This document shows positions 2,890-44,503 of a DNA stretch of 64,000 nt, one piece after another. Both the position numbers and the translations under genes were made by a program. The stretch is taken from assembly GCA_017506865.1 (NCBI GenBank), contig JAFCMP010000445.1, positions 868,001-932,000 of the forward strand, in the 5' to 3' direction. This DNA is from Tribonema minus (Eukaryota > Sar > Xanthophyceae > Tribonematales > Tribonemataceae). The stretch's first letter is position 1; each line of letters opens with the position of its first letter. Below the pieces are notes generated by a model, which was not told the DNA's origin, ran no database searches, and saw nothing but the letters and a program-made list of their open reading frames with translations.

Positions 2890-4347
2890 ATGTGGGCTTT
2901 CTGGAGCCCGAAGCGAGCAACCTCTGCCGAGCCGTGTCGACCAGAAGCGACACGCTCCCAGACGGGCAGAGTCATTAAATCCCCGATCAAAACCGCTGGC
3001 GCCTTACGCCTTACCACCGTGTACCTGGTCGACTTTGAAAATGGCTGCCAGAAGTTCGTGCCGGCGGAGTGCTTCATCCTCGGCTCGCCCACCTGCGAGG
3101 ACCCAGCGGCAGTCACATCGGCGGTGATCTTGTTCAAGGCGCCGTTCGGGAGGGACGCCGATGCCGCCGGAACCATCTCCGACTACTGGCGGTCTGACAC
3201 TCTGGTGCGCGTGGCGACGTGCTTCACGACGAACCCCGAGGCGGCGGACACTCACCTCGTCCTCGCCGCCTCCTCGCTCATGAGCCGGCCCCCCGGCCCG
3301 CACCCGGCGCTGCAGGGACTGCTGCTGGCGCCGCCTGAGGAGCTGAACGTGAGGCTCGTGCACGGTGGGGACAGGCGCTACGGCGAGCTGGGCGCGTCGC
3401 TGCTCAAGCACGGCAACTTCAAGAGCTTCGGTGTCATGAACGGCACCAGGCAGCGGCTCGGGGATCCGCTTGCTGCGCCAACGGCGGGCGCGCGGCCGGC
3501 CGCCGCAGCGGTGGCGCGAAATGGTGGCGCTGGCGCAGCAGCACCTAGCGGCAAGCGAAGGATGAGGGTGCAAGCCAGCGGCCCCAGCGATCCGCGCGAG
3601 GCCTTCGCGCAGAAGATGCGCAAGCTGCAGCAGCGCAGGAGCAAGCGCGAGCGCAAGAGGGCGGCCGTCCTTGCCGCGCAGCAGAGCTTCCTGCACTGCC
3701 GCGAGTGCAGCCTCATGTGCGCGAGCGTGTGGGCGCTGCGCGCGCACATGCACGAGGAGCACCGCGACCAGCTGTGCGCGTGCGCCCGGTGCGCCGCCGC
3801 CGCCGCGCCCGCCGCCGCCTCCGCCGCCGCCGCAGCCGCGGCCGAGGGTGCGCCGCCGCCGCAGCCGCCGCCGCCGCTGCTGTTCACTGCGGAGGAGCTG
3901 ACGGCGCACATGGCGCAGCGGCACCGCGAGTACGTGTGCTTCACGTGCGCGCGCGTGCCGTCGTTCGCGATGCCCTTCGGCCTGCATGCGCACCAGCGCG
4001 CGCTGCACGGGTACACGTGCCCGGTGTGCGGGGAGCGCTGCCTCACGCTGCTCGCCGCCGCCGCGCACCTGCGCCAGACGCACAGCCACGACGCGCTCGG
4101 CGTGTGGGCGCCGCCGCGCGGCGTCGCCGCCGCCGCCGACAAATCAAAGCTCATGAGCACCGCGCGTGACGTGCTTTCGGTGGCGCCGCCGCAGCGTCGA
4201 CTCCAATCAGCGGCTGAAGTGCTGCGGGCACATATATTGAGTCTGTGCGCAGTGCGCGTGGCGCGGGAGTACCGCAGCTTATGTTCGACAGTGATGACCC
4301 CCCAGGTGACAACATTGAAGGGGGGGAGGGGCGGGGGCTTCGATTGA
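2890..4347 (+). CDS. PIN/NYN-like nuclease domain fused to C2H2 zinc fingers, copy 1
   Basis: A single open exon, about 485 aa from the in-frame ATG at 2890. The true start is uncertain because the frame is open to 2614, and where the paralogue has Met (KAMRLTT) this copy has Leu (GALRLTT). Residues about 40-175 match a PIN/NYN-like fold: VYLVDFEN (first acidic site), an alternating strand/helix layout, AADTHLVLAAS (about 118) and HGGDRRYGELG (about 159). A basic linker (KMRKLQQRRSKRERKRAAVL) follows. Then comes one block of four zinc fingers: CREC...HMHEEH, CARC...HMAQRH, CFTCA...HQRALH and CPVC...HLRQTH, broken by poly-Ala and poly-Pro runs. PIN-like domains usually cleave RNA, and the fingers would supply nucleic-acid binding; substrate and catalytic competence are inference. 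It converges on its paralogue at 7723-5462. Confidence 0.65.
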   Translation: MWAFWSPKRATSAEPCRPEATRSQTGRVIKSPIKTAGALRLTTVYLVDFENGCQKFVPAECFILGSPTCEDPAAVTSAVILFKAPFGRDADAAGTISDYWRSDTLVRVATCFTTNPEAADTHLVLAASSLMSRPPGPHPALQGLLLAPPEELNVRLVHGGDRRYGELGASLLKHGNFKSFGVMNGTRQRLGDPLAAPTAGARPAAAAVARNGGAGAAAPSGKRRMRVQASGPSDPREAFAQKMRKLQQRRSKRERKRAAVLAAQQSFLHCRECSLMCASVWALRAHMHEEHRDQLCACARCAAAAAPAAASAAAAAAAEGAPPPQPPPPLLFTAEELTAHMAQRHREYVCFTCARVPSFAMPFGLHAHQRALHGYTCPVCGERCLTLLAAAAHLRQTHSHDALGVWAPPRGVAAAADKSKLMSTARDVLSVAPPQRRLQSAAEVLRAHILSLCAVRVAREYRSLCSTVMTPQVTTLKGGRGGGFD

Positions 4348-5461: not shown

Positions 5462-7723
5462 TCATTCCACGGCCGCGCCCGGCGGCGGCGGCGGCGGCGC
5501 GCGCGGCGCGCCGCGCACGTCGAGGCGGTGCGCGCGCAGCAGGTGCGCCGCGGCGTCGTGCAGCGTGCAGAAGCGCTTGGCGCAGAGCGGGCACGTGTGC
5601 CCGTGCGCGGCGCGCTGGTGCCGGCGCAGCGCCGCGGCGTCCTCAAACACGCACGCGTCCGCGCACGCGAAGCACACGTGCGCGCCGTGGCGGCTCCGCC
5701 AGTGCGCGGACATGTCCTCCGCCATGAGCGGCGGCGGGCGGCGCGTGGCGTCGCACGTCGCGCACTCGTGCAGCGCGCCGCGGTGCGCCGCGCGCGCGTG
5801 CGCGCGCAGCGCCTCCACGTCCGCCTCGAGGTGGTGGCACTCGCGGCAGCGCACGAAGCCGCCGCCGCTGCCGTCGTGCTCCCCAGCGGGGGCGAGCGCC
5901 GTAGCGCTGACGGCCGCTGCCGCCGCCGCATCTGCAGCCATGTGCTCCCGCGTGCGCTGCCTGCGCTCCGCGCGCTTGCGCTGGTGGAACTCCTTCAACC
6001 GTTGCAAGCTGCGGCACTGCCGCGCGCTGTAGCGCTTCAAGCAGAGGTTCTTGACGCGCTTGACCTTTGCCGCTGCCGCCACTACGGTGCCGCCCCCTCG
6101 CAACTTGTTTTTCAGCGCTGCCTTCGGTACGGTGACAGCTTTGCCCAGCTCCTGCATCGTGTGCTGTGCCGAGGAAAGCGGCGGCGGCGGCGGCGGCGGC
6201 ATCGCGCCTCGCTGACGCGGCGGCGGCAGCAGCGCACGCCCCTCCAGGCCGCCCTCGCACTCACAGCCCCAAAGCTGCTTGAAGCAGTGCTCAGCGTGCA
6301 CATGGGCGCGCAGAGCCTTGCCGTCCGCGCACGGGCAACTGCAGTAGGGGCATTGCCACCTTTCGACTGCCTCCGCCGCTGCCGTCGTCGCCGCCGCCGT
6401 CGCTGCCGCCGCCGCCGCCGTTGTAGCTGCGGCCCACGCCCCGCGCACGCCGAATGCGTCGAGGCAGTGCACCTGCTGCAGATGCATGGCCACGCCCATC
6501 ACCATGCAGCAGCGCTTCGAACACAGCGGGCACAGGTGCACATGCGCCATGCGCTGGTGGCCGCGCAGCTGCGCCGCCGTCGCGAATGCGGCCGCGGGCG
6601 CGCACGCGAAGCACACGTACGCGCCGTGCCGGTGCTGCGTGTGCGCCGTCAGCTCGCCCGCCATGAAGAGCAGTGGCGGCTTCTTCGTCGCGCCCTGGTC
6701 AGCGGCGGCGCACGCGGCGCACGAGAGCAGCTTGTCGCGGTGCTCGGCGCACATGTGCGCGCGCAGCGCTGCCAGATTCGGGCACAGGTGGTTGCACTCT
6801 TGGCACTGCAGGATGCCCTCTGCGGGGGCTGCCTCCACTGCGGGCACTGCAGCGGCCACCGATACGAGTGGCGCGCCAGCCGCTGTTGCTGCCTCCGCCG
6901 CTGCTGCTGCCACAGCTTTCACAATGGCTGCTGCCAGCACAGAAACTGCCGTCGCAGGAGCTGCAGGAGCTGCCGCCACAGGAGACGTCGCGGGAGCTGT
7001 CGGTGCAGCCGCCGCCGCAGCAGCGGCAGCCTCTGCTTTCCGCTGCTGGGCACGTATGCGTTTCAGCTTTCTGCGCAGCTTCCGCTCGAGGGCGCTCCGC
7101 CGCTCAGTTGCGGCCTACTTCTTACAGAGCGCGCTCGACTTGCTGGCTTTCGCTTTAGCCGTTTTCTTGCGCTTGACTGCCGCCACGCCGGCGCCGCCGC
7201 GCGCCTCCTCCGCTGCAGCATCGGCCGCTGTCGGTGCGACCTCCAGCCGCTGCGCGGTGCCGTTCACGACGCTGAAGCTCTTGAAGCCGCCGTGACCGCG
7301 CAGCGCCGCGCCCAGCTCGCCGTAGCGCCTGTCCCCGCCGTGAACGAGCCTCACATTCAGCTCCTCGGGGGGCGCCAGCGCCAGGCCTTGCAGCCCCGGG
7401 TGCGAGGTGGGGGACCGAAACATGAGCGAGGAAGCAGCCAAGACTAGGTGAGTGTCTGCCGCCTCGGGGTTCGTCGTCAGGCATGTCGCCACTCGTACCA
7501 GAGTGTCATACCGCCAGTAGTCGGAGATGGTTCCAGCGGCATCGGCGTCCTCCCCAGACGGCGCCTTGAACAGGATCACCGCCGATGTGACTGCCGCTGG
7601 GTCCTCGCAGGTGGGGGAGCCGAGGATGAAGCAGTCCGCCGGCACGAAGCTCTGACAGCTGTTCTCATAGTCTACCAGGTACACGGTGGTGAGGCGCATG
7701 GCTTTCACGCTGCTGATCGACAT
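5462..7723 (-). CDS. PIN/NYN-like nuclease plus C2H2 zinc-finger protein, copy 2, interrupted by one in-frame TAG
   Basis: The minus frame is open from ATG 7723 to 5462 except for one TAG at 7117-7115. The 202-aa first part starts MSISSVKAMRLTTVYLVDYE and is a close paralogue of copy 1 throughout the PIN-like domain (AADTHLVLAAS, HGGDRRYGELG). The 550-aa part after the stop, in the same frame, begins with a basic linker equivalent to that of copy 1. It then has a four-finger block (CQEC, CAAC, CFAC, CPLC each with paired His), an isolated finger (CPYCSCPC...HVHAEH) with degenerate partners, and a second full block (CREC, CATC, CFAC, CPLC). Because the linker just after the TAG is conserved, an intron there is unlikely. 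A nonsense mutation, stop readthrough or a sequencing error are the alternatives. If the TAG is real, the gene yields a PIN-only protein or is a recent pseudogene. Confidence 0.65.
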
Positions 7724-9867
7724 GATCTGTTTGCTCGCTCACTAACAGGGCGATAAGCAGCCCACGTTGACAAGAGCGCAGGCCCCAGATTTGTCCAGCA
7801 TCTGCTTGACCTCGTGCCCAGGACTGAACTGCCGAGGTATCACCAAGTTCTGCGTCGACGTCCGAGCATGCGCACACAGTCCCAGAAAATAGTTCAACTG
7901 TGGGAAATCAAAGGTGAAGTTGGATGTGAACGGTCCAAGTTGAGTGCATGTGCATGCAGTGCCATGATACGGCAATCCTGACTGGCGCTTTCCTAGAGCT
8001 TCCTGCTGCTGCGCCCAGACACTCGTGCACTGCTTGCACCTCTGTCCATCCAGCCCACGCAACGGGGAGGCGGCTGCACTGCAAGCATAGCGCCATTGTG
8101 TGCTGCGCGTTGGGGGGGGTCAAGCGCGTGCTGCAGCAACAGCAGCTGGTACTGGATGCCTGATGGCTGTGAGGGGCGCGAGAACGGCTGCTAGATGCGT
8201 TGGATGAGACCAAGAGCGATTGGTGAACTTCAAGCTTTTTTCTGAGGGGCTGCGTCGCGCTGGCCACGTGCCTTGCTTGCTGACGGTGCCACTTCCTGGG
8301 AAAAGAACACTCTTGAAAGTCACGAATCGCTCTCGCTTTTGTCCAGCACATCAGCAGCGACTCTGAGGCTCCCACCGAGCACGACTCGCGCTTGCGCGAG
8401 GCATCCGACACGCCACTCGTTAATGTGGTTTTCTCGGAGCTGTCTCCGCTCCCAGCGACCGTTCACAGGAAGACATCCGTTGTATCATTGGCAGCGTAGC
8501 TGCCGCCACCCGGCTAGCAGCTGATGCCATCGTTCCTTGTGACTTTGCAGTTTCAAGTACTGGGCAGGAGCACTTAGGTTTTTCTGTAGACATTGCGGTA
8601 CGTGTAGATCTGAATGGTGACTTGCAGCCACCGGGCGTACTGGGCAACTTGGCCAAAATCAAACATCATGATGACACTGTTTTTTTGGATAAAGTGTGGA
8701 GATGCTTTCAGCAGATTGAGCATTGGTGACTGCTGCCAAAAAAGAGCAACGCAACGAGCACCATGACGATCTCGTTTACACTTAGATTGACTCCACACTG
8801 ATGTTGCGAGCAATTTTGCATCATTGATGCGGAGATGAAGCTTGCACTACAACAGATGCGCCCGCACGCGTCCATCGCAACCCTTTCACGGCAGGCCGCG
8901 AAAAACATTGTCACGCATGCTGTTGAAGTTGAAGTTGCCTTTGCGAGGACCCGCGGCGTTCGGCGCTTGAAGAGCAGCCATGGCACACCTACAGGCCCCT
9001 AAACTGGTACCCATTATGTGGCCCGGCACATGAGACACCAGTTCTTCAACAGTCGAGGCAGCTCAGCTCAGCTCCTGCCGCTCGCACACAATCATGATGC
9101 AACATAAATGATGCGCTCGGCGAGGGCTCTGCAATACGACTGGTTATTGCCAATAACCAGTCGTCACATCGGCGATCGCCGCATATCAAAGCGTTCGCCG
9201 ATGCTCTGGGTGTTCTGGCCGCATGTGTGCGCCACATAGCCGGCCCCTCTGAAACAGCCTTTTGGGTGTAAACGGCGGTTGAGAGCTGCTGCAGATGCCT
9301 GCGTCATTTCCTGTCGCTGGCCTGCGCCCTGGCCGCTTCGCGCATCATCTGCGGCGCGCAGTGTGCAGGGGGGCAGCATGCGGAGGCGTCGACACAGCGC
9401 TTCCGCGAGGCAGCACAAAACGCACTATCGCAAACGCCTATCGCAGCGTGCCAAGAATGCGGCATGTGCATGTGAGACATCGTGGACATGTCAGAATCTG
9501 CGACGCAGCTGAGCGCTGCTGCGCGTGTGCTCCACGTGTTCTTGCGGCAGGATATGCCTTGAGGCGTGCGCCAAGAGAGAGATGGCTGGGGCAGCTCTGA
9601 GACATTTGAGCCAGCCTGGCATAAATATGGGTTCCATAGGGCTGCAGCCTACTGCACGCCGCTTGATTGAGGCCTGCTGCTGCGGCAACAGCAGAGGCGG
9701 CTGTGACCTCCAGAAGCAACGTTGTGAGTGGAGCGCAAAGATCTTGGCGCTCACGTCGCGTGTACTTTATGTCAATTCACAAGTGCTGCTCTGCGGAAAC
9801 AGCTGACCTTGTGCATGTAAATTTTGTAACATGTCGAATGTTTGTCATGTATCAGAGTGTGACTTGC
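7724..9867. other. Region between PIN-zinc-finger copy 2 and the last recognised BART exon
   Basis: About 2.1 kb. It should contain the promoter of copy 2 (minus, starting at 7723) and the missing 3' exon(s) of the BART gene. No segment could be assigned with confidence. Two acceptor-like minus sites follow the BART GC donor (one near 9797, one near 9690), but neither opens a family-like sequence. It contains GTTGAAGTTGAAGTTG (about 8921-8936) and a perfect hairpin at 9136-9164. Confidence 0.5.
9136..9164. repeat. Perfect 13-bp hairpin
   Basis: ACGACTGGTTATT and its exact reverse complement AATAACCAGTCGT are separated by GCC. No U-run follows, and the site is in a non-coding stretch without a recognised gene. 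Confidence 0.9.
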
Positions 9868-14596: not shown

Positions 14597-17500
14597 ATGC
14601 GGCGGAAGGCCAGGCCCAACGCCGCGGACAATGTCGCGGGGGAGACGTGGGAGGGGCAGGGGCTGGACGCAGGCGTCGCCGCAGCAGCGGGTGCGCCGTC
14701 CGCCATGAGCAGCTCTGGACACAATGAGGAGCCGCCACCGGAGAAGAAAAACAGGCCAAAAGGTGAAGAATCATGCACCGCGCCCGCCATCAGGGTGCAG
14801 AGTTAGGTTACGGTCACGCGGCAGATTTAGGGTTAGTATTAACCCTACATAAATGGTCAATGGTGTCGCGGCGGCTGGCGCGCCCTCTGCTATGAGCAGC
14901 TCTGGACACAATGAGGAGCCTCCGCCAGAGAAAAAGAACAGGCCAAAAGGTGAAGGATCAGGCACTACAGTACAAGTATAGAGCTAGGACTAGGGTGAGG
15001 TCACGTGGTAAGGTTAGGGTTAGGGTTGGGGTTAACCCTACACAAATGGTCAATGGTGTCGCCGCGGCTGGCGCGCCTTCCGCCATGAGCAGCTCCGGAC
15101 ACAGTGAGGAGCTGCCGTCGGAGAATATCAACAGGCCAAAACGTGAGGGATTGTGCAGTACAAGTGTAGGGTTCCGAGTTGGGTTAAGGTCACGCGGCAA
15201 GGTCAGTGCTCAGCGGTTTGGCAAATGCCGGTCTGCACCCCCGCCATGAGCCGCTTTGAACATAATGAGGCGCCGGTACCGGAGAAAAAGAACAGGCCAA
15301 AGGTGCAGGGTCAGGCACTGCAAGTGTGTCAACTTGGGGTAGGGTCGCGCGGTAAGGTTAGGGCTAGGGACAGGGTTAGGGTTGGGGGAGGAGCAACCGG
15401 GCAAAAAGCAACAGGCCAAAGGTGAAGGAATGGCACGACAGGGTGCAGGGTTAGGGTAAGGTCACACTGAAGGGGTAGGCAAGGCAAGGTTAGGGTTAGG
15501 TTGGTTTAACGTAGTGGTCAATGGTGTTGCCGCGGCCGGCGCCACCCTCCGCCTTGAGCAGCTCCAGGCAACGAGGAGCCGCTTCGGGAGAAAAACAGGC
15601 CAAAAGGTAAGGTGAAGGATCAGCCTGGCAGAGGATGGCAAAAAGTTGAGACTGTGGCAGCAAGAAATGGGCGGGAGGGGGGGGGGAGGGGGGGCGCGGC
15701 TGTCAGCGCAAGTAACTAGCTTTTGAAACAGGCTTACGACTGTCGCAATGATGACTTGGCGGGCGGAATGAGGCAGGCATTGACAAGTCATCGTTGACTT
15801 AACTGAACGCTAACGAGGTCCTGCCAACTTTAACTTCATGCCCGGTTGCGCTTCCGCTCCAGCGGCAGCGCCCTTGTCCCACTCTGAGCCCTAGTTATCC
15901 TTGCCCCTTCACCAAGGGATACTCGACCCCCCTTTTCAAACATTTCTTTTGTCTCCGACAGCGGCGGCCCGCCATTGTGTCCGTAGCTGCGCATAGCGGA
16001 GCGTGCACCGGCGGTCGCGAAACCGCTGAGCACTACCCTTGCCCAACTACCTTGCCCTAGCTCTAATCAGGCCCAAACCCACCCCCCCCCCCCCATTGCT
16101 TTTGCAGACAGCGTTTTTTGGCAGCAGAACATGGACACACGCACACACACCCTTGCCATGGTCACAGTCTCGATCCCTGCCCCTGTCTGCCAGGCTGAAC
16201 CCCCCCCCCCCCCCCCCTTCCCCCCTTGTCTTTGCAGACAGCGCATTTCGGCAGCAGAACATGGACATGTGGGTGCCGATCCTCACGCCGCGCTGCGTGG
16301 TGCTCATGTTTGCGGCGGTGGCGGCGGCGTTCATACCCGCGGGCGTGTACCTCTACACGCAGTCCAAGGCCGTCGTCGAGTACCGGATACAGTGAGTTGT
16401 TGAAGTTGGGGATTGCGCTGTTCATCTGTTAAAGATTGCAGTCAAGCATCACCATACCCGGATACAGTGAGTTGTTGAAGATGAAAAATGAACTTGAAGT
16501 TTTGTTATGTTGAAGAAGTCGGCGAGCAGCACCGCGACCACTACGTGAAGCACGTCTCACGCGCGTAATTCTCCGGACAGAGCAGGGCGGTCGTGAAAGT
16601 ACCGGATGCAGCGTGTGTGTTGAAGTCATGGCGTGTGGTAATTGAGGCTAGTTCTGCTGAAGACGTCTGGCGAGCTTCTTGCTGCAGCCAGCGCATCAGA
16701 GATGGACGAAGCATTTTGACACAGATCAAAACAGCTGAAGTTGAAGAAACGGTTCTGTTGACCCAGCGGACGAGCGGCACTGCAGCCTGTTCGCTATCAA
16801 AGTAGCATCGACATGCACGGTGTAATCAGCGCACCTAACAAGTTGCCTTGCAGCACACACAGGGGGTGCCTGGTTACGGCGTGTGTGCTCAACTTCAACT
16901 TGAACTCCCGCCGCAGGTATGACGGCGACGGCAACGCCTCTCACCCAAAGATACCTACCTACCTCAACACCTACCCTCATCTACCACTAGTATGCTCGGG
17001 TCAGACTTCAATCGCCACAACTGCAACTTGAATTGCTGCTGCAGGTACGACGGCGACGGCGCCGCGGCGGGCCTCGCGGCCTGCGCCGTGACGGGCTTCA
17101 ACCAGAGCGCCGCGTGCACGGTGCGCTTCGACGTGGATGCGACCATGGAGCCACCCATCTATGTGTACTACGAGGTCGGCAAGCTGCTGCAGAACCACAG
17201 GTGCGGCGTCAGGGTTGAAGTTTGCTGGTTGAAGTTTGTGGGTGGGTGAGGGGGGGTTGTGTGGGTGGCTGATCGCGTAGGGGTACTACGAGGTTGGGAA
17301 GCTGCTGCAGAACCAAAGGTGCGGCGGCAGGATTGAAGTTTGTGGGTTTAAGTTTGTGGATGGGTGGGGGGGGCGGTCGCGGGGCGGCTGATCGTGCAGG
17401 GGCACCACGAGCACGGAAAGTTGAAGCTGGTGGGTTGAGGTTTGTGGGCGGGTGGGGGGTCGCGGGGTGGCGGATCGTGTAGGGGTACCACGAGCTTAGC

Positions 17501-19523
17501 AGGCTGCTGCAGAACGAAAGCACGCGGCAGGCAGGCGGCGGTTGACAGTGCGCATCACGCTTTGTATATGCTTGGGTTGCAGCGACGGCTTACTAGCGGG
17601 CAGGGGGTAGGGTTCGGGGAGTGCGTGTGCTTCAGTTGGGAGGGCGGCGGACCGGAGCGAGCGCAAGTGCCGCTTGTTTTAGGGTTAGGGTTTGGTGTAC
17701 GTGTGTGTGCCGAGGTCGTGGGGTAGCTGAGGGAGTCCGTTTGTGTGCTGCGGTTTGCGGTCAATGTCTGTACGTGCGTCGAAAGACCCCGCGATTACTC
17801 TCCGTTTGAAGGTGCTCTCCATTTGAAATTACGCTCCTTGTGAAGTGACTCGCCGTGCTCAGGGCGCTGACATCAGGATCTCTCGCTGTACTACCTCACC
17901 ACGCAGACGACATGACGGTGTACGGAGAGTAGTGGCAATACCCGTACACAACCACTTGCAGAGCACTGGCTTTTAAAGTTCTACCATAACGAACAAAACT
18001 ACTGTCTTGTGCTTGATATTGCTGAAGTCGAGGTTTGCGGAGTACCCACCTGGTACCCAAACGCTCCCCCTAACCCCTCCCGCTCCCGCAATTTAACCAC
18101 GTGGCATTCGACGGAAACACACAAGCACACCCCTGTTCGCCGCCAGCCGTGGCCCCCCCCAGACACACACACACACCCCACGCCCAACCACCCCCCTTCG
18201 CTCCCCCCCCTCGCCCCCCAACAGGAAGTACTCAAGAGCCGCAGCGCGCCTCAGCTGACCGGCAACGACAGCGCGCTGCTGGGCGATGACAACTGCGAGC
18301 CCCCCCGACATGACATTGAAAGAAAATACACGCACCCCTTGTCGCCGGCAGCCCCCCCCCCCCCCTTCTCCAACCCCATGCCCTTCCCCTCGCTCCCCCC
18401 CCCCCCCCCCCCCCCCCCCGCGTCTCCCCGGACAGGAAGTACGTTAAGAGCCGCAGCGCGCCTCAGCTGACCGGCGACGACAGCGCGCTGCTGGGCGACG
18501 ACAACTGCGACATCACATTGAAATAAAACACACGCACCCCTTGTCGCCGCCGGCTGTGGCAGCCCCCCCCCAACCTCACAAAGACACACACACACACCAC
18601 ACACCACGCCCTCCCCCCTTCCCCCCCCCCCCTCCGAGACAGGAAGCACGTCAAGAGCCGCAGCACATCTCAGCTGACCCCCCTGTCCCCACCCACCCAC
18701 CCACACACATGCCCTTCCCCTCCCCCCCAACAGGAAGTACGTCAAGAGCCGCAGCGCGCCTCAGCTGACCGGCGATGAGAGCGCTCTGCTGGGCGACGAC
18801 AACTGCGAGCCGCTGCGCAAGGACGCCGCCTCTGGCCAGTGGCTCAACCCCTGCGGCCTCATCGCCAACAGCATGTTCACGGACGTGCTGAGCGTTGCTG
18901 ACGCGCCCGCGCCGTTCGACGGCGCGAGCAGCGGCAGCTTCATGTCGGAGACGGGCATCGCGTGGCCCGTAGATAGGTGAGATATCCCAACTAAGTGCTA
19001 GCTAAAATGTAATTGAGGTACAGGTGACACTTCGGCTGCGTATCTCAGTGCGGTTGTCGCCAACAGCAAGTTCACAGTGTGCTGACGATTGTGGCGGCGC
19101 CCGCGCCGCTTGACGGCGTGAGTAGCGCCAGCTTCATGTCCGAGACGGGCATCACGTGGCCTGTAGATGAGTGAGTGGAGAGGCTGTGGCGGACGGGCAG
19201 CGGTATGCATCACTGGTAGAGTGGCACATGCCGATCGCACTAAGTACGTAGCTGCAGCAGAGCCCTGGCTGGTAGGCAACACAGGCAAGACGGCAACCGC
19301 TTCACGTTTGTGACAATGTTCAAAGGGGGCACCTGCGTGCTGTTCGCAACGCGCTGTTTCATGGCTGACACAGCACCACGTGGCCCCCCCATCGGTGAGG
19401 CTGTTGCGCCAGAACATCTCTGTGGTGCGTGCCACGCAGCTGATCGACACGCCCAAAGGCTGTGAGGCCTCAGCGCTTGCTCTCAAATTACTGAGCTGCT
19501 GCTGCTGCTGAGTCGCGATAAGC

Positions 19524-19575
<52 letters not shown>

Positions 19576-19600
19576 GCGCTGCTGCTGCCGCTGCTGCTGC

Positions 19601-19663
<63 letters not shown>

Positions 19664-22600
19664 CGCTGAACACTGCTGCTGCTGCGACGCGCTCTCGCTC
19701 GCGCAGCGAGGATCGGTTCAAGCAGCCGGACGGATTCGTGTTTGGCAAGTGCCCCTCCGGCCCCTGCACGGACTGCCTGAGCAGCGCTGCCTTCACCGCC
19801 GCCAATCCCTGCAAGGTATTTACATTTGTGTACTTATTGAATAGGATAAAAGTCGAGCTATACGCAACAACACCTTGACATATGTATCAGAAACACCTTC
19901 GGGCGTGCGCAGCATGACCTCAAGATACGACGTGCAGCATGAGCCGCGCACCCTCCGCCGCTGCTGACCCATGCAAGGTGTTTATTTGCGCTTGTATACT
20001 TTGGGGATACTTACGTTTTGAGAGTCCAGCGACAAGCAGCGGAATCTGGACATGCGTACCAGAACGCACTTCAAAAGCACTTGGGCGTGCATGTGCGGCG
20101 TAACCTCGACATGCGACGTGCAGCGTGGGCTGCGCGCCCCTCGCCGCTTCTAGCCTGCCCGAGTTGCGCGAACAGGGCGACCGGAGTGCCCGAGCGCTGC
20201 CGCATTTGAGGCGTGCAAGGCAAACTCGGTACTTAGGTATTGAAGACCTGAACGTACGGCGCGCACACTGTCAGAGCAGCGCCGCCTCCACCGCCGCCGG
20301 CCCCTGCAAGGCACTGCTTCTGCGCTGCCGGCCCCTGCAAGGCATGCATGAGAGCGTCCATGCGCAGTGCGCCCTGCAATATACCGCTGTGCCCATAGAG
20401 GCCGAGCGCTGCTGCTCTCGCCGCACGCGCTTGTGTGCAGGCGAGACGTCAGTGTACCCTGCGCCGACTGCCTGAGCGGTGCTGCATTTGCCCCCACCGC
20501 CACACGCATGGCAGTGTTATTTTGTGCTCGACCGTGCGTGCGTGCGTGCGGCCAACTTTGCGATCGCTTGTGTGCGCTGTCAGAGCGTTGCATCCACCGC
20601 CGGCACCTCGTTCATGGCAGTGCGCAAGCACTTGCGGAATTGTCTGTCTCGGGCGTATGGTGTCTTTGTCGTGCTAAGTGTGGCTGGACTCACGCTGCGT
20701 GGCCTGTAACGGTATTGCCGCATGAAGTGCACGAGGCATCACCTTGTCGCACTCGGTAGTTCAGACCTGATTCTACCTTTGTAGACTACCAAATGCGTAA
20801 GGTTGTGTGTGCGGTGTCAGTGCCTCTCGCAGGTCGATGCTTGCATTTGATAGGGTCGTACTCACTGTTATGGTTGGGGTTAGGGTTAGCAGCATCGTGG
20901 ACACCGTCTCAATTCATCAGTCTGGGCGTGCAAACGCCCTCTGAACTCGCACGCGCGCACTGCCGGAGCAACCACCTCCCCCCCCCCCCCCCCCCCCGCC
21001 CCTGCTGCACGATTGTGAATGTTTCCGACCTCTCCCCCATCTCCCCCCCCCCCCCCCCCCCTCAACGTTCTTGCAGCTGACCCAGTATCGAGGCCAGCGG
21101 TGGGCGTACTGGTACCCAAGCGACGACACGATACGGTACCTGTACGAGACGTACCCCGCCATTGTGAACCCTATCGAGGGCGTGCTCAACGAGCACTTCA
21201 TGGTGTGGATGAGGTGAGGCGGCTGCGCGGGCGGTTACGGCGATTGAAACCGCTTTTCAGAAAGGAGGCTCATCGAGAATGGATTGCGTGTTTGCCTCTT
21301 GTTGGTCACACCGTGCAGCAATTTGTGCTTGTGTTGTTTGATGGATGCTGATGGGCAGGACGGTGAAATCCAGCTGATGTTTGCTTAGTATGCCCGTGCA
21401 TTGTCACGAGCCCACTCCTTCGATGGTAGCTGGAGTGGATCACAGCATATTGAGCGGTTGTTGTGTGTACGCCAGCGCATTGCTGGCCTGAGTACCTACA
21501 TACCTGCATGACAGCGCACGAGGTGACGTCGCCATGGACAGGCGCTCTGTGCCGCACGCGCTGTCTGCTGCGAAATGTTTGAAACGCCCAGAGTTTCACC
21601 GCCAGATACATGTACCTTGTTATTCTGGAATTTCATTGACGCATGGCGCCGCGTGCGCTGTGGTCTGCTGCAGACAACATTGAAGTTGATTACAACTTCA
21701 CTAACGTCCGCAGCTTACTTTGGAGCATTAGCCTAGACTCGGTTTAGCCACATGGCGCTGTGCCTGCAGCGCTGCAGAGCAGCCCGTGTGCTGACACCGC
21801 ATGAAGTCGCTCGCAACTTCACTATCATGTCTTGAAAGCTTAGTAGTCTAGATGTTTCATATCAACCACAAGAAGCCGCGCCCGCCACCGCGCGCTACCA
21901 GTATGCCAACAGCAATGAAGTTGCTCGCAACTTCACTATCATGACCCGCTCATTACTCTAGATGTATCTTATCAAACAACATACTGCCCCCCCCCGCTGA
22001 GCGCTGCTGCAGGGCAGCTGGCATGCCGACATTCCGCAAGGTGTATGGGCGCATCGACACGAAGCTGGAGCCCGGCGACCACGTCACGTTTGACGTTCAA
22101 GCCAGGTGAGCACTGCTGCAAAATGGACGGCATGTTGAAGTTGAAGCTGCTCACTACCTCACCAGCATCCGAACCGTACTAGTCTGTGCAATGTAAAGCT
22201 ATGTACCTGCACGTAGAATGTATCGAAGGCAAGGTGTACGGGCGCATTGACACGAGGTTGGAGCCCGGCGAGCACGTCACATTTAACGTTCAAGCCAGGT
22301 GAGCACTGTTTATTGTATTGCTGTCCATATGGTGCTAGCAGCCGGCCATAACGGCGCAAACCAAGGCCATCATACATCGAAGGACCATCTACCATCTACT
22401 GTAATCTAGCATAATTTTTTAACAAAGCATACATTTATAAATATATATCCTTATTTTGGAGTATTACGTTGCGTGTTATTGTATGTTTTGCTTCCAACAC
22501 GTGCGCGGCAGCTACGACCTGTCTGGCGTCGACGGCCTCTGAAGGTTTCGCAGATGATGCCATCGCGCACTGCCACCCCCTTGGGGTGATGTTTTTGTGA

Positions 22601-24267
22601 CGTGTTCGTCGTGTCCTATGCGCGCTTTTGCGGTGGGCGCGCGCAACTACATGGATGCATTGCCACACACATACAGTACTGATTACATTCAATACTTTTG
22701 TGTGTTTCATGCGCATGCGGCAGTTACTATGCGTCTGGCTTTTGACGGCACCAAGGCCATCGTCCTGTCCACGCTGTTCAACGTAGGCGCGCACAACTTG
22801 ATTCATTGTCACTTACATACAGTACTGATTATATTCAGTACTCCGCTGTTCCTGCGTGAGCGGCCCAGCATGGGACCATGCAGCCCAATATGGTGTCCCA
22901 TATTTACTGATACTTCTGTTCAATACTTTGTTTTTGCATACGCCTGCGGCAGTTACTACGTGTCTGGCTTTGACGGCACCAAGGCCATTGTGCTGTCGAC
23001 GCTGTCCAGCGTGGGCGCGCACAACTTGATACATCGTCACACAAATACAATGCTCTCAAACATACAGTACTGATATTCAATGCTTTTGATTTTGTCATGC
23101 GCCTTGATACATCGTCACACAAATACAATGCTCTCAAACACACAGTACTGATTATAGTCAATACTTTTGATTTTTGTCATGCGCATGCGGCAGCTACTAC
23201 GTGTCCGGCTTCGACGGCACCAAGGCCATCGTCCTGTCGACGCTATCCAACGTGGGCGCGCACAACACCTTTGCCGGGCCCGCATATATGGCCATGGGGA
23301 TCCTCGCCTTCCTCATCGGTGAGCGCTGCTGCCGCTGCTGTGTTGAGCGTTGCAACGCTGTGCGTCGCCCCGCGTGTGCATGCATGATGCATGCATCTGT
23401 GTGCATGACTGTCATCAACCCACGTCGTTCTGACTTCCAAACTTGAAAGTTTTTGAAATGTAGTTTGAATACACTATCAGCAGCACTTTGAGAAGCAGCC
23501 CAGCTGAGCACATACTTGGGGTGCAGCGGATCGTACTTCAAGTTCAAGTGGTGCTGCCTGAGCGCTGTCGTGTGCCTTTGTTCAGTCTGCGCGATAGTCA
23601 ATGTCAAGCTTGCCATGAGAGTCAGGCACCTTGTGACAGCTTGAAGTGTCTCAACGCGCATTGACGATCACTGGAAGTGCACTCCAGCGCCGGCGTTTGC
23701 TTCTCCTGCCATGACAGGCGTGGGCTTCTGAGTCGATGCTTGCCTCATTGCCGCCATGTGGTTCCGTGCCGCTCGCGGCAATGAACGCATGCACTTTTTT
23801 CGCCACTGGCACGTGCAAACGCCCTTTCTCACCCCCTCCCGGATCCCCCCTAATTCATGAAATTGCTGCGCCCTTGCACATTCACGTTAAAGTTTGATCC
23901 CCTGCACGTTCCCGCCTCTCTGCCGCGCGCAGCCGTCGGCTTTGAAATCAACGCGCCCTTGAACATGCACTTGCATGCGTTCGCCCCATGCGCTGTGCCT
24001 CTCAGCCGCGCGCAGCCGTGGGCTTCATAGTCAAGCACCTGCTCAACTTGGCGTTCACCTCATGCGTCGCTGGCATGTAAAGCCCTTGCTCCCTCCCTCC
24101 CGGATACATGCTGTTCCACGCGATTGCTGCGCCCTTGCACATTCACGTTGAAGAAATGCGCTCTCGCCTCTCTGCCACGCGCAGCCGTGGGTTTCACGAT
24201 CAAGCATCTGCTCAATCCGCGTGGCCTCGGCGACGCGCGCTTTCTCAACATGCGGGACGTGCAGTGA
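14597..24267 (+). CDS. CDC50: CDC50/LEM3 family protein (P4-ATPase flippase beta subunit)
   Basis: Complete. Nine exons: 14597-14762, 16238-16391, 17045-17200, 18734-18976, 19707-19815, 21077-21213, 22013-22105, 23194-23318, 24185-24267. All junctions are GT-AG and phase-consistent, giving 421 aa ending at TGA. Diagnostic motifs in order: KKNRPKDSAFRQQNM and WVPILTP before the first membrane helix (VVLMFAAVAAAFIPAGVYLY, about residues 70-89); YYEVGKLLQNHRKYVKSR; NPCGLIANSMF (about 197-207); INPIEG-like VNPIEGV...HFMVWMR; MPTFRKVYGRI; a second helix around AYMAMGILAFLIG; and the tail KHLLNPRGLGDARFL. The family escorts P4-ATPases from the ER and is needed for their aminophospholipid flipping. 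A Cys-rich insertion (CPSGPCTDC) lies in the exoplasmic loop. Eight introns make the gene 9.7 kb, swollen by shadow-exon copies. Confidence 0.94.
14835..15615 (+). repeat. Five decayed tandem copies of CDC50 exon 1 with donor
   Basis: After the real exon 1 (ending 14762), intron 1 repeats the exon-1 end every 100-190 bp: about 14865-14952 (GAPSAMSSSGHNEEPPPEKK intact), 15060-15147 (EELPSENINRPK), 15238-15303, 15390-15424 and 15530-15609. Each keeps CAGGCCAAA(A)GGTGA-like sequence around the splice donor. Each unit also carries a TTAGGG-like stretch. The series grades from nearly identical to barely recognisable. Confidence 0.9.
14995..15035 (+). repeat. Interstitial telomere-like repeat inside CDC50 intron 1
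   Basis: GGTTAGGGTTAGGGTTGGGG at about 15010-15030. Related degenerate TTAGGG runs recur at about 14820-14840, 15355-15390, 15445-15460 and 15488-15510, one in or near each tandem shadow unit. Confidence 0.75.
16081..16130 (+). repeat. Shadow copy of the CDC50 exon-2 acceptor and start
   Basis: A poly-C tract, TTTTGCAG and then ACAGCGTTTTTTGGCAGCAG repeat the true acceptor and exon start at 16238 (ACAGCGCATTTCGGCAGCAG). The similarity stops after the ATGGACA codons, and the copy runs into an ACACAC stretch. Another donor-side copy of exon 2 (ACCGGATACAGTGAGTTGTT) is at about 16457-16480. Confidence 0.85.
16905..16945 (+). repeat. Shadow copy of the CDC50 exon-3 acceptor and start
   Basis: CGCCGCAG|GTATGACGGCGACGGC at about 16910-16931 duplicates the real exon-3 start at 17045 (GCTGCAG|GTACGACGGCGACGGC). 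The copy continues into unrelated sequence with no donor. Confidence 0.8.
17275..17530 (+). repeat. Three shadow copies of the CDC50 exon-3 end
   Basis: Downstream of the real exon-3 end (17200), the phrase encoding YYEVGKLLQN recurs at about 17283-17318 (nearly perfect, with donor GGTGCGG), 17401-17420 (remnant) and 17485-17523. Each unit carries TTGAAGTTTGTGGG-type sequence and a G-rich run. Confidence 0.85.
18225..18685 (+). repeat. Three shadow copies of the CDC50 exon-4 acceptor and start
   Basis: Before the real exon 4 (18734) the sequence ACAG|GAAGTAC...AAGAGCCGCAGC is found at 18225, 18436 and 18643. Copies 1 and 2 extend through TGACCGGC...GACAACTGCGA and copy 3 is short. Copy 1 lacks 2 bases in the KYVK codons, which breaks the frame. 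All copies follow poly-C/CT tracts that look like polypyrimidine tracts. None has a donor at the right place. Confidence 0.9.
19035..19180 (+). repeat. Shadow copy of the CDC50 exon-4 end
   Basis: About 130 bp matches the exon-4 3' part (GCCAACAGCAAGTTCACAG, GCGCCCGCGCCG, TTCATGTCCGAGACGGGCAT, GTAGATGAGTGAG). Small deletions break the reading frame. It follows the true exon end at 18976. Confidence 0.85.
19495..19680 (+). repeat. (CTG)n microsatellite directly before CDC50 exon 5
   Basis: About 180 bp of nearly pure CTG/GCT triplets, interrupted by TGGTGCTGGCG and CCG units. It lies in intron 4 and ends about 27 bases before exon 5 (19707). On the sense strand it could serve as an unusual pyrimidine-poor 3' intron end. 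Confidence 0.95.
19940..20620 (+). repeat. Shadow copies of the CDC50 exon-5 end
   Basis: Fragments resembling exon 5's last codons (CTGAGCAGCGCTGCCTTCAC then TGCAAG|GT) recur at about 19950-19985 (with GTGTTTATTTG after it, as in the real donor), 20270-20312, 20452-20510 and 20578-20600. They become progressively less similar. Confidence 0.75.
22224..22305 (+). repeat. Shadow copy of CDC50 exon 7 with donor
   Basis: It encodes VYGRIDTRLEPGEHVTFNVQ and then AG|GTGAGCACTG, like real exon 7 (ending 22105). The acceptor-side third of the exon is missing. The frame is open. Confidence 0.9.
22721..23180 (+). repeat. Two shadow copies of the CDC50 exon-8 start plus duplicated intron flank
   Basis: GCGGCAG|TTACTA... 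at 22724-22799 and 22953-23028 repeats the real exon-8 start at 23194. Copy 1 has an extra T that creates TGA in the GF(D) region; copy 2 is open. Both lose homology after the codons for GAHN and run into TTGAT(A/T)CATCGTCAC. That flank, with ACAGTACTGAT and ACTTTTG, is itself repeated, so the units are about 90-230 bp tandem duplications. Confidence 0.9.
23925..24062 (+). repeat. Two shadow copies of the CDC50 terminal exon start
   Basis: GCGCGCAG|CCGTCGGCTTTGAAATCA at 23933 and GCGCGCAG|CCGTGGGCTTCATAGTC at 24016 precede the real exon 9 (24185, GCGCAG|CCGTGGGTTTCACGATC). Copy 2 keeps AAGCACCTGCTCAA and then diverges. The lead-in text (GCGCCCTTGCACATTCACGTT) is duplicated too. Confidence 0.88.
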
Positions 24268-25785: not shown

Positions 25786-28700
25786 CTACGAGCCCACTAC
25801 AGGAGCCGCCGCTGTTGCCGCCGCCGCCGCCGCAGCCACGCTGCGACACACGCCGCGTGCCGCCGCGATAGACCCGCCGATCTCCTCCAGCACAGCGTCA
25901 GCGCTCGCGCCGCTCAGCGCCACGACGAGCGCTGCCACGCGCGCAGCAGCGCTCTCCACCTCCGCCCACCCCCCCGCGTCCCCCTCACCCCCCTCCCCCT
26001 CTTCAGGGGGGGGCACGCCTTCCAAGGGTACGTCGGCGACAGGGGGGGGCGTTTGCATGCGCGCGGCGAAGGCGCGAGCGCCGACGAGGCAGCAGAGGAG
26101 GCGTGCGCGGTGCGCGCGGACGCGTGGCCAGCAGTGGATGAGCAGCCTCTGCAGCGTAGACAGCGCGGCGAGTTGGACGGGGGGGCCCCCCGGGGCCATC
26201 GCGGGCCCTATGAGGGGCAGCAGGCCCGCCAGGAGGGCGCGCAGGCGCAGGGTGAGCGCCGCCGCTGCGGTCACGGGGGGGGGGGGGGGGGTCGTGGGGG
26301 GAGGGGGGGTGAGGGGATGGAGAGGCGGGCTGGGATGCGCAGTGCGACACATTGGGGGTGGGCACGCGTGTGCTGTCAAGGCTGTCAAGCGCAACCCAGT
26401 GCGACGCGCAGAGGAGGGTCAGCAACGCGGCGGTTTGTGAGGTGACACGGCAGCTGGGCGTGACATGCTGGCAAGGCGGGTTGGGAGACGCGGTGCGCCG
26501 GGGGCGGAAGTGGTACCTCAGTACCTCATCTGCTATTGAGACTGTGTAGCAAAACTGTGTAGCAAGGCGGCGTGCGCGTTCAGAATGAGCGCTGCTGCTC
26601 TGGTCCCGGAGAAGCACGAGATGAAATCGCATTTTTCACCAACAACTCGCGCAGCAGCAGCCCGCGCATTTCGTAGGACGCGGCGGGCTGCTTGTGCATG
26701 GGCGGCGCGCGAATTGCGTGATATCAGGTCTCGACACCGCACATGGGACACAACGGCCTGTCAAACTTCAAGCTGAACCTCTAGCGCGTCGCGCACTCAC
26801 GGTGCATCAGCGCGTGCAAGCGACAGGACGTTCAGAGGCGCAGCCCAGACCCCCCATCTCTAGGCCAGAGGAGCGCTGCTGCAGAGCAAGGGGGGGTCCG
26901 CACCTCGCGTATACCTGCCGGTACAGTGCGTCTGCCGGTTGCTTTTGCTAATAATCATGAGCAATCACCAGAAATCTGTGCAGCGCTTGAAGTTTCAATA
27001 CTTCCAAATACTCAAGAAGAGGCGCCGTGTGCTCAGGTGCGGCTGACAGTGGGTTAGGGTTAGGGTTAGGGTTAGGGTTAGCCTAAGTGCACCGCGCGGT
27101 TCAGGTGCGCTCGAACTCCACACTGTCCCGCATAGGCAGTTTTCCAGCCCTCACCGTTTCAGCTTGGGTGCTTCAAGTGCATTTGCGCTGTTGTCGCGCG
27201 GCGGCGACGTGCCTGCGTCCTTAACATTGTAGAGTTTTCAGCACACACATCTACCTGTGGCAGGGCTGTCGCCGCCGCGCGATGTGCGCAGCGCGTGCAT
27301 CACCGCCGCGGCGCCGCCGACGCACGCGAGCCGCAGCGCCGCTCCGCGCATCGACGCCTGCACGTAGCAGCATCGATCAGCAAATGATCGGTTCAAGCTG
27401 CACGCAGCAATTGCGCCGCGTGTAATGCCTACTTGATAAGCCAAAGCGACGCTCCGCACATCGACAGTGCGCCGCAGCAACGATCAGCGAGCGGTCAGTA
27501 AATGATACCCGCTGCAGTGCGCTGTGCTCGATTCCTGCTTGCAAGCCGCACCGATGCCTTGCACATTCGCGTGTGCATTGCAGAGGCAGCAAGCACCATT
27601 CGGCAAGTGATCAGTTAAGTTTGTGGGGTTCGTGGTGCTCAATCCCCACTTGGCCATGGCGATGGTCCACACAGTGTGCTGCGTGGTAGTGCGGCATATA
27701 TGTATGTATATGCATATGTAGCCCGTGCTATGCAGGCCACAGCATGATCACAGCGAGCCACTCGCATGTCAATGGCGAGTGACTTGCCACAAAACCGCAA
27801 CAAGTGACTTGCGACAAAACCGCGCCGTTGCCGACGTGCAAGCAACCAACCAGCTGCACTGGAAGCAGGGGCGTTACACCTGAAGGCAGGCGCAGGCGCC
27901 GCATCGAGACAGAGCAGGCACAAATGGTGAAAGGTGATAGTGAAATGAAGTTGAAGTCTTGAACTTCAAATTGAAGTCTTGTGTGTAACTCCGTACCCAT
28001 GCACGGTATGTGAGTACGCTGCATCAAGTCAGAGACCCGCGTGTGAGCGGCGCATAAGGCAGCTACTATCAAAACGACAGCTTTGAGCGTTGTGCTCGCC
28101 AACGGCCTCATTGATCAAAGCGGGGAAGACTTGCCTGCTCCACGGCGAGTCTGACGAGCGCTGCTGCGACAGCCCCGGCCTGCGCGCACAAAACCGCAAC
28201 TGTAAGAGGTGACGCCAATCATGCACAAGTAATCATACATGCGGCAATGCACATCAGGCAATGGGACCGCGAGCGCAAACGATTGTCAGCACATGCTTTG
28301 AAGTATGTGCGGCAGACGTGTGTTGATCGGTGAGGACAGGGCGATGCGCGCTGCGCGCCCACGACCGTGCGTGGACAAATGTGTAACTTCAAGAAGTGAC
28401 GCCGGAGACGCACAGTGTGATTGTACACGCGGCAGAGGAGGCGGGACAGCGGCACCGCAAGCTGAAGAGACGCTTTACCTAGACTCTGAAGTACGCGTGT
28501 TGCTGCTTCTACCATACGTACAAAACCCACAAGTCCCGGCAACAGTCTGAAATATGCAAGCATCAGCTTCATGAAATGCGTGTGTCGAGTACCTCTGCAC
28601 CAGCCGCGCGCCCAGCACCAGCGCCGCGCTGATGACCGCGGCAGCATCTGTCATCAACGCAGTCTAGTGAGGTCTCGCCCTACCGCTCAGGTATCAGTAG

Positions 28701-38745: not shown

Positions 38746-38915
38746 CCGCGCAGCACATGCTCACAGACAGAAATTCATATATGTAGCAAGCCACACCAGC
38801 ACTGCCGCTGGCAGTTGCGACAAGTCACTGCCGCGCAGCACATGCTCACAGACAGAAGTTCATATATGTAGCAAGCCACACCAGCACTGCCGCTGGCAGT
38901 TGCGACAAGTCACTG
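38746..38915. repeat. 85-bp direct repeat, two near-identical copies
   Basis: CCGCGCAGCACATGCTCACA...GTTGCGACAAGTCACTG is present at 38746 and again at 38831, with about one difference (AAATTC versus AAGTTC). A recent tandem duplication. Confidence 0.95.
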
Positions 38916-39539
38916 CTGCTGTGGCTCTTGGGCACTGCTGTCGTGCCGCCACCGCCGCTGCTGCAGCTGCCACGTGACGCTGACCGTCATGGACATGATA
39001 TGCTGCCTTGCGGAATCGTTACAGTCACCACATAGCAATCATTGCACGGGGGCCATACTGCATGCTTACGACATGTGTGTGCGTGGGGTAATGCGCTGTC
39101 GAGGCACCAGCTCGTGACTCATACCTCAGTAGGCAGCGCCGATTTTGCGAGGCTGTGCAGAATCACCAGGTGTTGGTGTTGGTGGCGCTCCTCAGAAATT
39201 ATCCGCTGTCACACCACGCCATTTGCATTCAGCACTGGGGATGACGTCGGCTGCCGCGCGCGGTGCAGCTGCTCAGCAGCAGTGCTCCTGCAGCTATATG
39301 TGACTTCGGAGTATAGTCGAAGTATTTGTGAAGTTCCAGCCCGCTATCACAATCGGCGTGCCATACAGGCGTTTCGTTCCCGCTGACGATGCTGATCGCA
39401 CCTATTTGCACATTCAGCACCTGTCTTCGACAGCCGCCGTAATCCCAACCCTAACACTAATCCTGGCAGCAGACGACAGGGCTGTTTCTAATCCTAGCTA
39501 GTGTGGTAACCTGTAACTCACAGATCACGGCTATCGTGG

Positions 39540-42800: not shown

Positions 42801-44503
42801 CCCCCCCACACGACGCAGGTTTGTGATGCTCATTGTTTAAGCTTGTGGTTGGCGCAAAGCGATTTTTGCTCCCAGTGCGCTGAGCGTCAAAGTGAAGGAA
42901 TTCCACTTGGGCTTTGGTGAACAACAGGAGTAACCATGTTGTTTTTACTGGTGTGCTCTGTTGGTCGGATGCGCTTCAGAGCTGGGTGCTCCAGGCGCGT
43001 CGCATGTAGCGCGTGTAACTGGCAGGCTGACCTTCTGAAATACTTTTTAAGTTCCTTGAAGCACGGATGTTCACCTACTTCGAAGTACTTTAAGGCATGA
43101 CGGAACTCAACATGAGTAACGATTGCCTGTAAACGACAGATGTGCTGCGTGGTACTCGGTGTTCTTTGAAGCTCAATTTCACAAACTTCAAAGTAGTCGG
43201 TGAGTCAGACCCCAACACCAGCAACTGTTTGTTTGCTTGAATGCCACAGAGTCGGACGACAAGTGCGGGGCCGAGCTCGCCCCCGCCGCCATTCCCCAGC
43301 CACCTGTCTCAGCAACAGCAGCAGCAGCAGCATTCGCCGTTTCTGCAGGGGGGGCAGCAGCAGCAGCCGCCGCAGCAGTTCCAACAGCGTCCGATGGGCA
43401 TGGGCTCAGGCAAGTGCCAGTCAATGTCGATGCTGATTGGCTGGCCACGATGTCTTTTCTGATGTTGCGCTGTGTTGACGCTGTTCTCCGCAAGCTGTCA
43501 GTTCTTGAATGGAAGACATTGTATGTAACCTCCTTGATTCAGATGAGTCAGTGTCAAGATCCTAAAAACATCAAACTCGGTGAGTTCTAACTGTGAAGCC
43601 GCAGTGCGCAGCCACGAGCTGCGCCTGTGCGCTCGTGCCGCCTCGCAAGGTGGACCTACCCATGTCAGTGCTCACCGCTCAGAGGGGTCTATGTCGATGG
43701 AAGTAGTAACTCTGGGGCTTTTTCTGTCTGCGTGCTCTTGCTGCACAGGCACAGGCATGGCTTTTCGCACACTACCTTCGAACTATCAATCAGGTTTCAC
43801 GAGTGCGTTGATTGCACGGCATTGTAGTGGTGAAACTCGAGACGTTTCGAAGGCGCGAACGACAAATCCAACTCCATCAACACTGATCATATCCGTGTTG
43901 CCTACCAGGTAGGGCTCTGCTTCAGCTACGTGCTTTGTGTTGTTAGCGGCCTGTGCCAGACAACAAATGATGGCACTACGCTGCTGCTTCCCTGAGTCTC
44001 TCCGCAAGAACTTCACATTCCATTCTGTACGCCTGTTCCCCTTGTCATGTCCACGTGCTTTGTGCTGCGCTAGCAACCTAACCCTTCTCTGCACACCGTC
44101 ATCTCATGCACGTTGTTAGCGGCCTGTGCCAGACAACAAATGATGGCACTACGCTGCTGCTTCCCTGAGTCTCTCCGCAAGAACTTCACATTCCATTCTG
44201 TACGCCTGTTCCCCTTGTCATGTCCACGTGCTTTGTGCTGCGCTAGCAACCTAACCCTTCTCTGCACACCGTCATCTCAGGCACCGAAGAACCAGCATGT
44301 GTGCGTTCGTTGACAGGACCAAGCAATGTTGTAGAGTCAAGATTGCTGCGAAGGTCAAATCCTCCAGATGTGTGAAGGCTTCTCATGTCCCTCACGTTCG
44401 TTGCAGGGGCGGGCATGGGCGCCATGGGCGGGCCGCGCCCGATGATGCCCATGCAGCAGCAGCAGCAGCACGGCGGCATGGCGCAGCAGGGCGGCGGCAT
44501 GCC

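Follow-up and report, generated by a model that had tools for sequence, protein, structure and literature searches.

Tandem duplication across splice junctions as a probable source of intron lengthening in genes of Tribonema minus

Introns in several genes of Tribonema minus contain partial, decaying copies of their own flanking exon-intron boundaries, and the best explanation, which we hold with a probability of roughly two in three, is that recurrent tandem duplication of segments straddling splice junctions, followed by near-neutral decay, lengthens these introns. Segments of mostly 75-257 bases would be tandemly duplicated over and over, and for those straddling a junction duplication or retention would be several times as frequent as for wholly intronic ones. 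When a duplication spans a donor, the first (outer) donor would stay in use and the second copy would turn into intron; when it spans an acceptor, the last acceptor would stay in use. The exon would act as a conserved template, its copies would drift almost neutrally, and repeated events would lengthen the intron. The outer junctions are taken as those used because they give an intact reading frame, and the copies probably stay silent for want of a complete exon in any of them, since a spliceosome recognising whole exons would pass over them. Local tandem duplication, placement on the near side of the exon, near-neutral decay, the lack of any whole-exon copy among those found and an excess at junctions in the recent families of five genes are demonstrated at the level of the DNA sequence.

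The window analysed is a stretch of 64,000 nucleotides (contig JAFCMP010000445.1, positions 868,001 to 932,000, forward strand), in which the gene at 14597-24267 is CDC50. Its nine exons encode 421 amino acids with 0 internal stops, every intron is GT-AG, and the Pfam CDC50 profile is matched nearly in full by residues 95-407 (E 7.2e-70). When each exon was compared by BLAST with the sequence on either side, 22 copies were found (Table 1), 21 of them intronic and one downstream of the last exon; eight of the nine exons have at least one copy, and for exon 6 this search found none in either flank. Copies are present in the adjoining intron at 11 of the 16 internal junctions, that is at six of the eight donors (exons 1, 2, 3, 4, 5 and 7) and five of the eight acceptors (exons 2, 3, 4, 8 and 9). 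When the gene is compared with itself, 35 local direct pairs are found, 21 of which touch an exon and none of which contains a whole exon.

These results bear on an earlier sequence-only reading of the same DNA, which had described degenerate copies of the adjacent exon-intron boundary in the CDC50 introns, donor-side copies lying downstream and acceptor-side copies upstream. Both descriptions are confirmed, the second by all 21 intronic copies. The same reading held that most copies are frameshifted or truncated; they are truncated, but a gap column is present in 7 of the 22 CDC50 copies and the other 15 are gap-free, so that most are frameshifted is not confirmed. Its observation that copies keep the AG or GT of the junction agrees with a hand-listed CDC50 and Cpn60 set, where GT is kept in 14 of 20 copies and AG in 19 of 21. 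A control in which thirds of exons were compared with the flanks of other loci gave 6 matches in 384 tries.

Table 1. Positions in the window of the CDC50 exons and the copies of their boundaries, and of three minus-strand coding segments with Pfam Vps41 matches
Feature	Position	Strand	Basis	Remarks
CDC50 exon 1	14597..14762	+		in frame, GT donor
Exon 1, donor-side copy 1	14867..14949	+	exon-vs-flank BLAST	possible alternative first exon
Exon 1, donor-side copy 2	15060..15142	+	exon-vs-flank BLAST	
Exon 1, donor-side copy 3	15241..15301	+	exon-vs-flank BLAST	
Exon 1, donor-side copy 4	15545..15606	+	exon-vs-flank BLAST	
Exon 2, acceptor-side copy	16108..16137	+	exon-vs-flank BLAST	
CDC50 exon 2	16238..16391	+	gene model	short donor-side copy 16458-16483
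Exon 3, acceptor-side copy	16917..16932	+	exon-vs-flank BLAST	
CDC50 exon 3	17045..17200	+	gene model	
Exon 3, donor-side copies	17283..17318	+	exon-vs-flank BLAST	second copy 17485-17515
Exon 4, acceptor-side copies	18225..18301	+	exon-vs-flank BLAST	also 18436-18510, 18643-18679
CDC50 exon 4	18734..18976	+	gene model	
Exon 4, donor-side copy	19057..19168	+	exon-vs-flank BLAST	
CDC50 exon 5	19707..19815	+	gene model	
Exon 5, donor-side copy	20267..20310	+	exon-vs-flank BLAST	further matches 20294-20329, 20328-20356, 20457-20502
CDC50 exon 6	21077..21213	+	gene model	no copy found by BLAST
CDC50 exon 7	22013..22105	+	gene model	
Exon 7, donor-side copy	22229..22298	+	exon-vs-flank BLAST	
Exon 8, acceptor-side copies	22725..22797	+	exon-vs-flank BLAST	also 22512-22536, 22954-23025
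CDC50 exon 8	23194..23318	+	gene model	
Exon 9, acceptor-side copy	24016..24046	+	exon-vs-flank BLAST, self-comparison	weaker one from ~23933
CDC50 exon 9	24185..24267	+	gene model	includes stop codon
Vps41 coding segment	48488..48700	-		exon limits approximate; upstream copies 48800-48887, 49019-49094; downstream 48206-48277, 48319-48384
Vps41 coding segment	54826..55065	-		four upstream copies within 55177-55794; one downstream 54633-54707
Vps41 coding segment	58414..58566	-		upstream copies 58673-58752, 58900-58953

The duplicated unit takes in intron as well as exon. The period of the copies is 75-257 bases at 32 of 34 junctions (323 and 495 at the remaining two) and the exon contributes 8-71% of it; at those 32 junctions the intron part of the unit, obtained from differences taken by hand, is at least 37 bases long, with a median of 82. 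Homology extends to the rest of the unit (z >3) in 15 of 20 tested copies, the other five having no clear homology there, and because the intron part is homologous too in these 15, the copies are tandem duplications and not pasted pieces of exon. The minimum length of the intron part perhaps reflects a need for each copy to bring along a branch point and a pyrimidine tract, or to stay at some distance from the true donor.

The copies of CDC50 and Cpn60 differ from their own exons by 2-24% and vary also in extent. Both facts speak against an assembly artefact in which repeats were wrongly expanded, as does the recurrence of the pattern in genes on many contigs; some contigs of the assembly are indeed redundant (L013/L014 are identical, L026/L027 99.9%), but we consider such an artefact very improbable. 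Among eleven hand-chosen families, exon and copy differ by 9.7% in their exon parts and by 20.8% in their intron parts, and two copies differ by 9.8% and 19.4%, respectively; a twofold difference between exon and intron parts is to be expected if copies were shed at various times from an exon that itself stayed conserved.

Changes found in one copy alone comprise 56 synonymous and 85 non-synonymous ones (a synonymous share of 0.40 vs a neutral 0.30 from the observed spectrum, p 0.012), while those private to the exons are 18 synonymous vs 3 non-synonymous. The copies thus decay nearly neutrally, with a mild synonymous excess left, and a general coding constraint on them, at first suggested by the pooled synonymous differences given below and by the better conservation of exon parts between copies, was dropped after this private-change analysis; copy 1 of CDC50 exon 1 alone remains an exception. 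Exon-derived parts have far fewer gaps than intron-derived ones, also when one copy is compared with another and beyond the calibrated effect of the aligner; a neutral model does not clearly account for this contrast, which could come from truncation of exon parts at indels or from context-dependent indel rates.

It could also be supposed that selection keeps the junction copies because some of them are used, whether as splicing buffers or as alternatives to the first exon or to a splice site. The pooled differences between exons and copies, 168 of 311 being synonymous vs 0.46 in a neutral mixture (p 0.004), are in its favour, and so is copy 1 of CDC50 exon 1, whose 12 differences from the exon are all synonymous (p ~8e-5, uncorrected for the number of copies examined, 47 in all with 22 from CDC50 and 25 from Cpn60) and which has, as read by eye, an in-frame ATG just upstream. 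This copy may be an alternative first exon. As a general account selection for use is improbable, since the changes private to copies are mostly non-synonymous (85/141), near the neutral expectation, and since no copy in the wider sample described below covers a whole exon hit and so could be swapped in as an exon.

Junction copying recurs beyond CDC50. The genome searched comprises 158 Mb in 554 contigs, from which we took the best 68 exon-hit loci of the CDC50, light-harvesting and Cpn60/CCT families with 1.5 kb flanks; 3 loci on redundant contigs were left out, and 2 of the resulting 65 belong to the window's own CDC50 gene. A nearby match to part of the exon is present at 34 of the 65 loci. 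Corrected for strand, copies of the 5' end are 30 upstream and 3 downstream, and copies of the 3' end are 36 downstream and 2 upstream, the near side holding 66 of the 71 exon-end copies. Copies of the exon middle number 5, there is one inverted copy vs 76 direct ones, and 0 of the 76 direct copies extends over >90% of the exon hit. Near-side placement is what tandem duplication gives when the outer junction is retained, so it supports duplication but does not, alone, support a process that seeks junctions.

We also modelled nine genes, whose 45 introns contain 113 pairs. Five of them hold 106 pairs in 27 introns, and recognisable duplicates make up 39-54% of their examined intron bases; the remaining four are almost free of copies (7 pairs in 18 introns). 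The five dense genes were chosen for being dense and CDC50 because the pattern was noticed there. The proposal in the sequence-only reading that introns of this genome grow mainly through such duplication, among other routes, is therefore upheld in part, by the share of intron bases in five of nine genes; the near absence of duplicates in the other four speaks against it. Among the loci searched, two more CDC50 paralogs (L069 and L070, contig C128) lie in opposite orientation ~25 kb apart and have 4 and 3 local direct pairs. The light-harvesting pairs L010/L011 and L016/L017 are mirrored on contigs C79 and C1 and are ~90% identical, and L017 (C1) has 7 local direct pairs vs 1 in L016 (C79). 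The best match of one light-harvesting exon is to fucoxanthin chlorophyll a/c proteins, the top entries being from a diatom, which probably indicates an alga with chlorophyll c.

Over the whole window, local pairs are 96 direct vs 2 inverted. Four minus-strand coding segments, picked by codon usage, show the junction-copy pattern too. Pfam Vps41 is matched by three of them, with E-values of 6.7e-07 (the one match to pass the curated cut-off), 1.9e-05 and 0.02, and the fourth, at 59474-59617, has no Pfam match; one GC-rich Vps41 segment has in addition several short inverted matches, an exception to the direct orientation. The most similar local tandem pairs of the window are at 43939-44284 (99%, unit of 173 bases) and 38746-38919 (98%, unit of 85 bases). 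Telomere-like (TTAGGG)n/(CCCTAA)n tracts occur at 27051-27081, 52433-52468, 57710-57767 and 62785-62895, the window being internal to a 1.97-Mb contig. Two inverted, clearly related coding regions, 3007-4176 (+) and 5507-7702 (-), contain RLTTVYLVDFENGCQ... and RLTTVYLVDYENSCQ..., respectively, and Cys/His-rich stretches; the one part of them that was searched has no confident Pfam match.

A comparison of two paralogous plastid-type Cpn60 genes, L074 and L075, gives the copies a relative age. Aligned DNA blocks of the two genes are 72-93% identical and exons 1-4 are equal in length, whereas the four introns used in L074 measure 357, 479, 772 and 524 bases vs 645-2382 in L075. In L075, copies are present at 9 of 12 junctions and number 25; in the four L074 introns there is one short pair. 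Each of the 25 copies resembles its own exon more closely than any L074 sequence, and 7 of them are without any L074 match; judged from these sequences, the L075 copies arose after the split of the two genes, in the paralog with the longer introns. One L075 intron, at 8203-8847, is absent from L074 and contains both donor- and acceptor-side copies, which may reflect an intron gain or a loss.

The main competing account dispenses with any preference for junctions: duplication would be even, exon-internal and whole-exon duplications would be purged, introns would initially have been short, and exon-anchored copies would stay recognisable about twice as long. The window, with its 96 local pairs, does have tandem duplications in many places, and the divergence of 9.7% vs 20.8% is the twofold effect expected. 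We simulated this null as even tandem duplication on the same exons with a purifying filter, decay, indels, optional deletions and varied starting lengths; its outcome depends on the chosen unit lengths and on the mutation and indel rates, and each setting had 4 replicates for the 27 introns and 10-12 for CDC50 and Cpn60. Even duplication with the purifying filter already gives partial exon copies on the near side. The share of pairs that touch an exon in CDC50 and Cpn60 is 0.60 and 0.81 (22/36 and 22/30 when the introns are searched singly) vs a simulated mean of 0.13-0.35 under even duplication, and a simulated fivefold junction preference gives 0.41-0.67.

The 27 introns of the five genes give the same contrast at matched coverage, the observed coverage by duplicates being 0.47. 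An exon is touched by 69% of the pairs and by 32 of 40 families, and copies are present at 32 of 54 junctions. The even null gives 30-38% of pairs, 40-42% of families and 14-18 junctions without deletions (coverage 0.44-0.48), and 23-32%, 38-55% and 11-20 with deletions (coverage 0.41-0.45). A tenfold junction preference gives 63-68% of pairs, 76-79% of families and 25-29 junctions (coverage 0.40-0.45), and is the best fit among the settings tried. When even duplication starts from introns of 100 or 300 bases the family share does reach 0.74-0.94 in some settings, but coverage then rises to 0.80-0.94 and at most 47% of pairs touch an exon.

A further test is independent of short ancestral introns, because families of at least 85% identity arose in introns near their present length. 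From start positions and a twofold detectability, 0.42 of such families are expected to touch an exon; in the five genes 20 of 21 do so (13 of 14 without CDC50), and 20 of 20 without low-complexity masking, low-complexity windows being 16 of 765 in these introns. At 90% identity or more the count is 9 of 12 (p 0.03), or 8 of 9 without the masking. Even duplication as the full account, which we initially favoured, was given up since it reproduced the data neither in the simulations nor for the recent families, and we now regard it as unlikely. The junction bias is real in these genes, partly chosen as dense, and the tandem duplication across splice junctions put forward by the sequence-only reading is supported, as is a junction bias beyond geometry, purifying filter and slow decay in the models.

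The preference for junctions probably lies in how duplications arise and not in selection, though either may be its cause. Breaks or slippage at exon edges would suit such a mutational route, and units near nucleosome size would fit it. It is conceivable, though on balance doubtful, that splice junctions are themselves targeted by tandem duplication in this lineage, with breaks during transcription or nucleosome-scale slippage at exon edges as possible routes, introns growing outward from their own boundaries; if this is true, transcription and splicing feed back on the DNA. The motif TTGAAGTT/AACTTCAA was considered as a cause of the donor duplications and rejected: it is ~30-67x over the expectation from base composition (37 occurrences in the window vs 0.8 expected), but in the sequences surveyed for it, the window and L069-L076, it is strongly enriched also where copies are few. 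Its core TTGAAG/CTTCAA occurs 2 times in 3.8 kb of exon vs 51 times in 16.8 kb of intron in three modelled genes.

Intron lengthening is usually ascribed to mobile elements and neutral insertions. A literature search covering titles and the opening of abstracts, with subscription journals mostly outside it, found no recurrent junction-centred duplication as a route of intron growth. If the junction-straddling duplication proposed here is correct, the growth of an intron can be read from the successive, decaying copies of a conserved exon edge that it contains, and the rate of the process, its position bias and its tolerance by splicing become measurable within one genome. Moreover, these genes would be a natural test of how splicing passes over as many as five similar sites close to the true one.

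Several known systems resemble this process in part. Whole exons are known to be duplicated in tandem and then spliced in a mutually exclusive manner; this likewise places duplicate exon sequence beside its source, but none of the copies found here spans a whole exon hit. Introners are, according to PMC9860276, a recurrent process shaping introns in algal genomes, reported in Chrysochromulina, Florenciella and Aureococcus, and introner-like mobile elements could in principle have made or enlarged the present introns. Introners are dispersed across many genes, whereas the copies here are local: among 35 introns of 7 genes no similarity was found between any two at E 1e-5, and what is repeated in each gene is a junction of that gene. 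Dispersed introners are excluded in this sample on the evidence of the sequences compared, and as an explanation of the pattern we give them hardly any weight.

Closer to the present case are introns born by duplication. PMC4974935 sets out a model by Rogers (1989) in which an intron is gained through duplication of an exon segment containing AGGT, and cases of duplication-born introns are described in Drosophila in PMC2891723. Local tandem duplication with splice-site sequence is common to that model and to the copies described here, but the model derives a new intron from exon sequence, whereas here the splice sites pre-existed. In the potato RdRp gene a single tandem duplication over an intron-exon boundary made a new intron (Ma et al. 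2016, PMC4974935). As in that gene, a duplicated segment can combine the 3' end of an intron with the beginning of the exon that follows; unlike the potato case, where one event produced a new intron and changed the exon structure, here there would have been many events, several per junction, that make existing introns longer while the coding sequence is kept and the copies decay.
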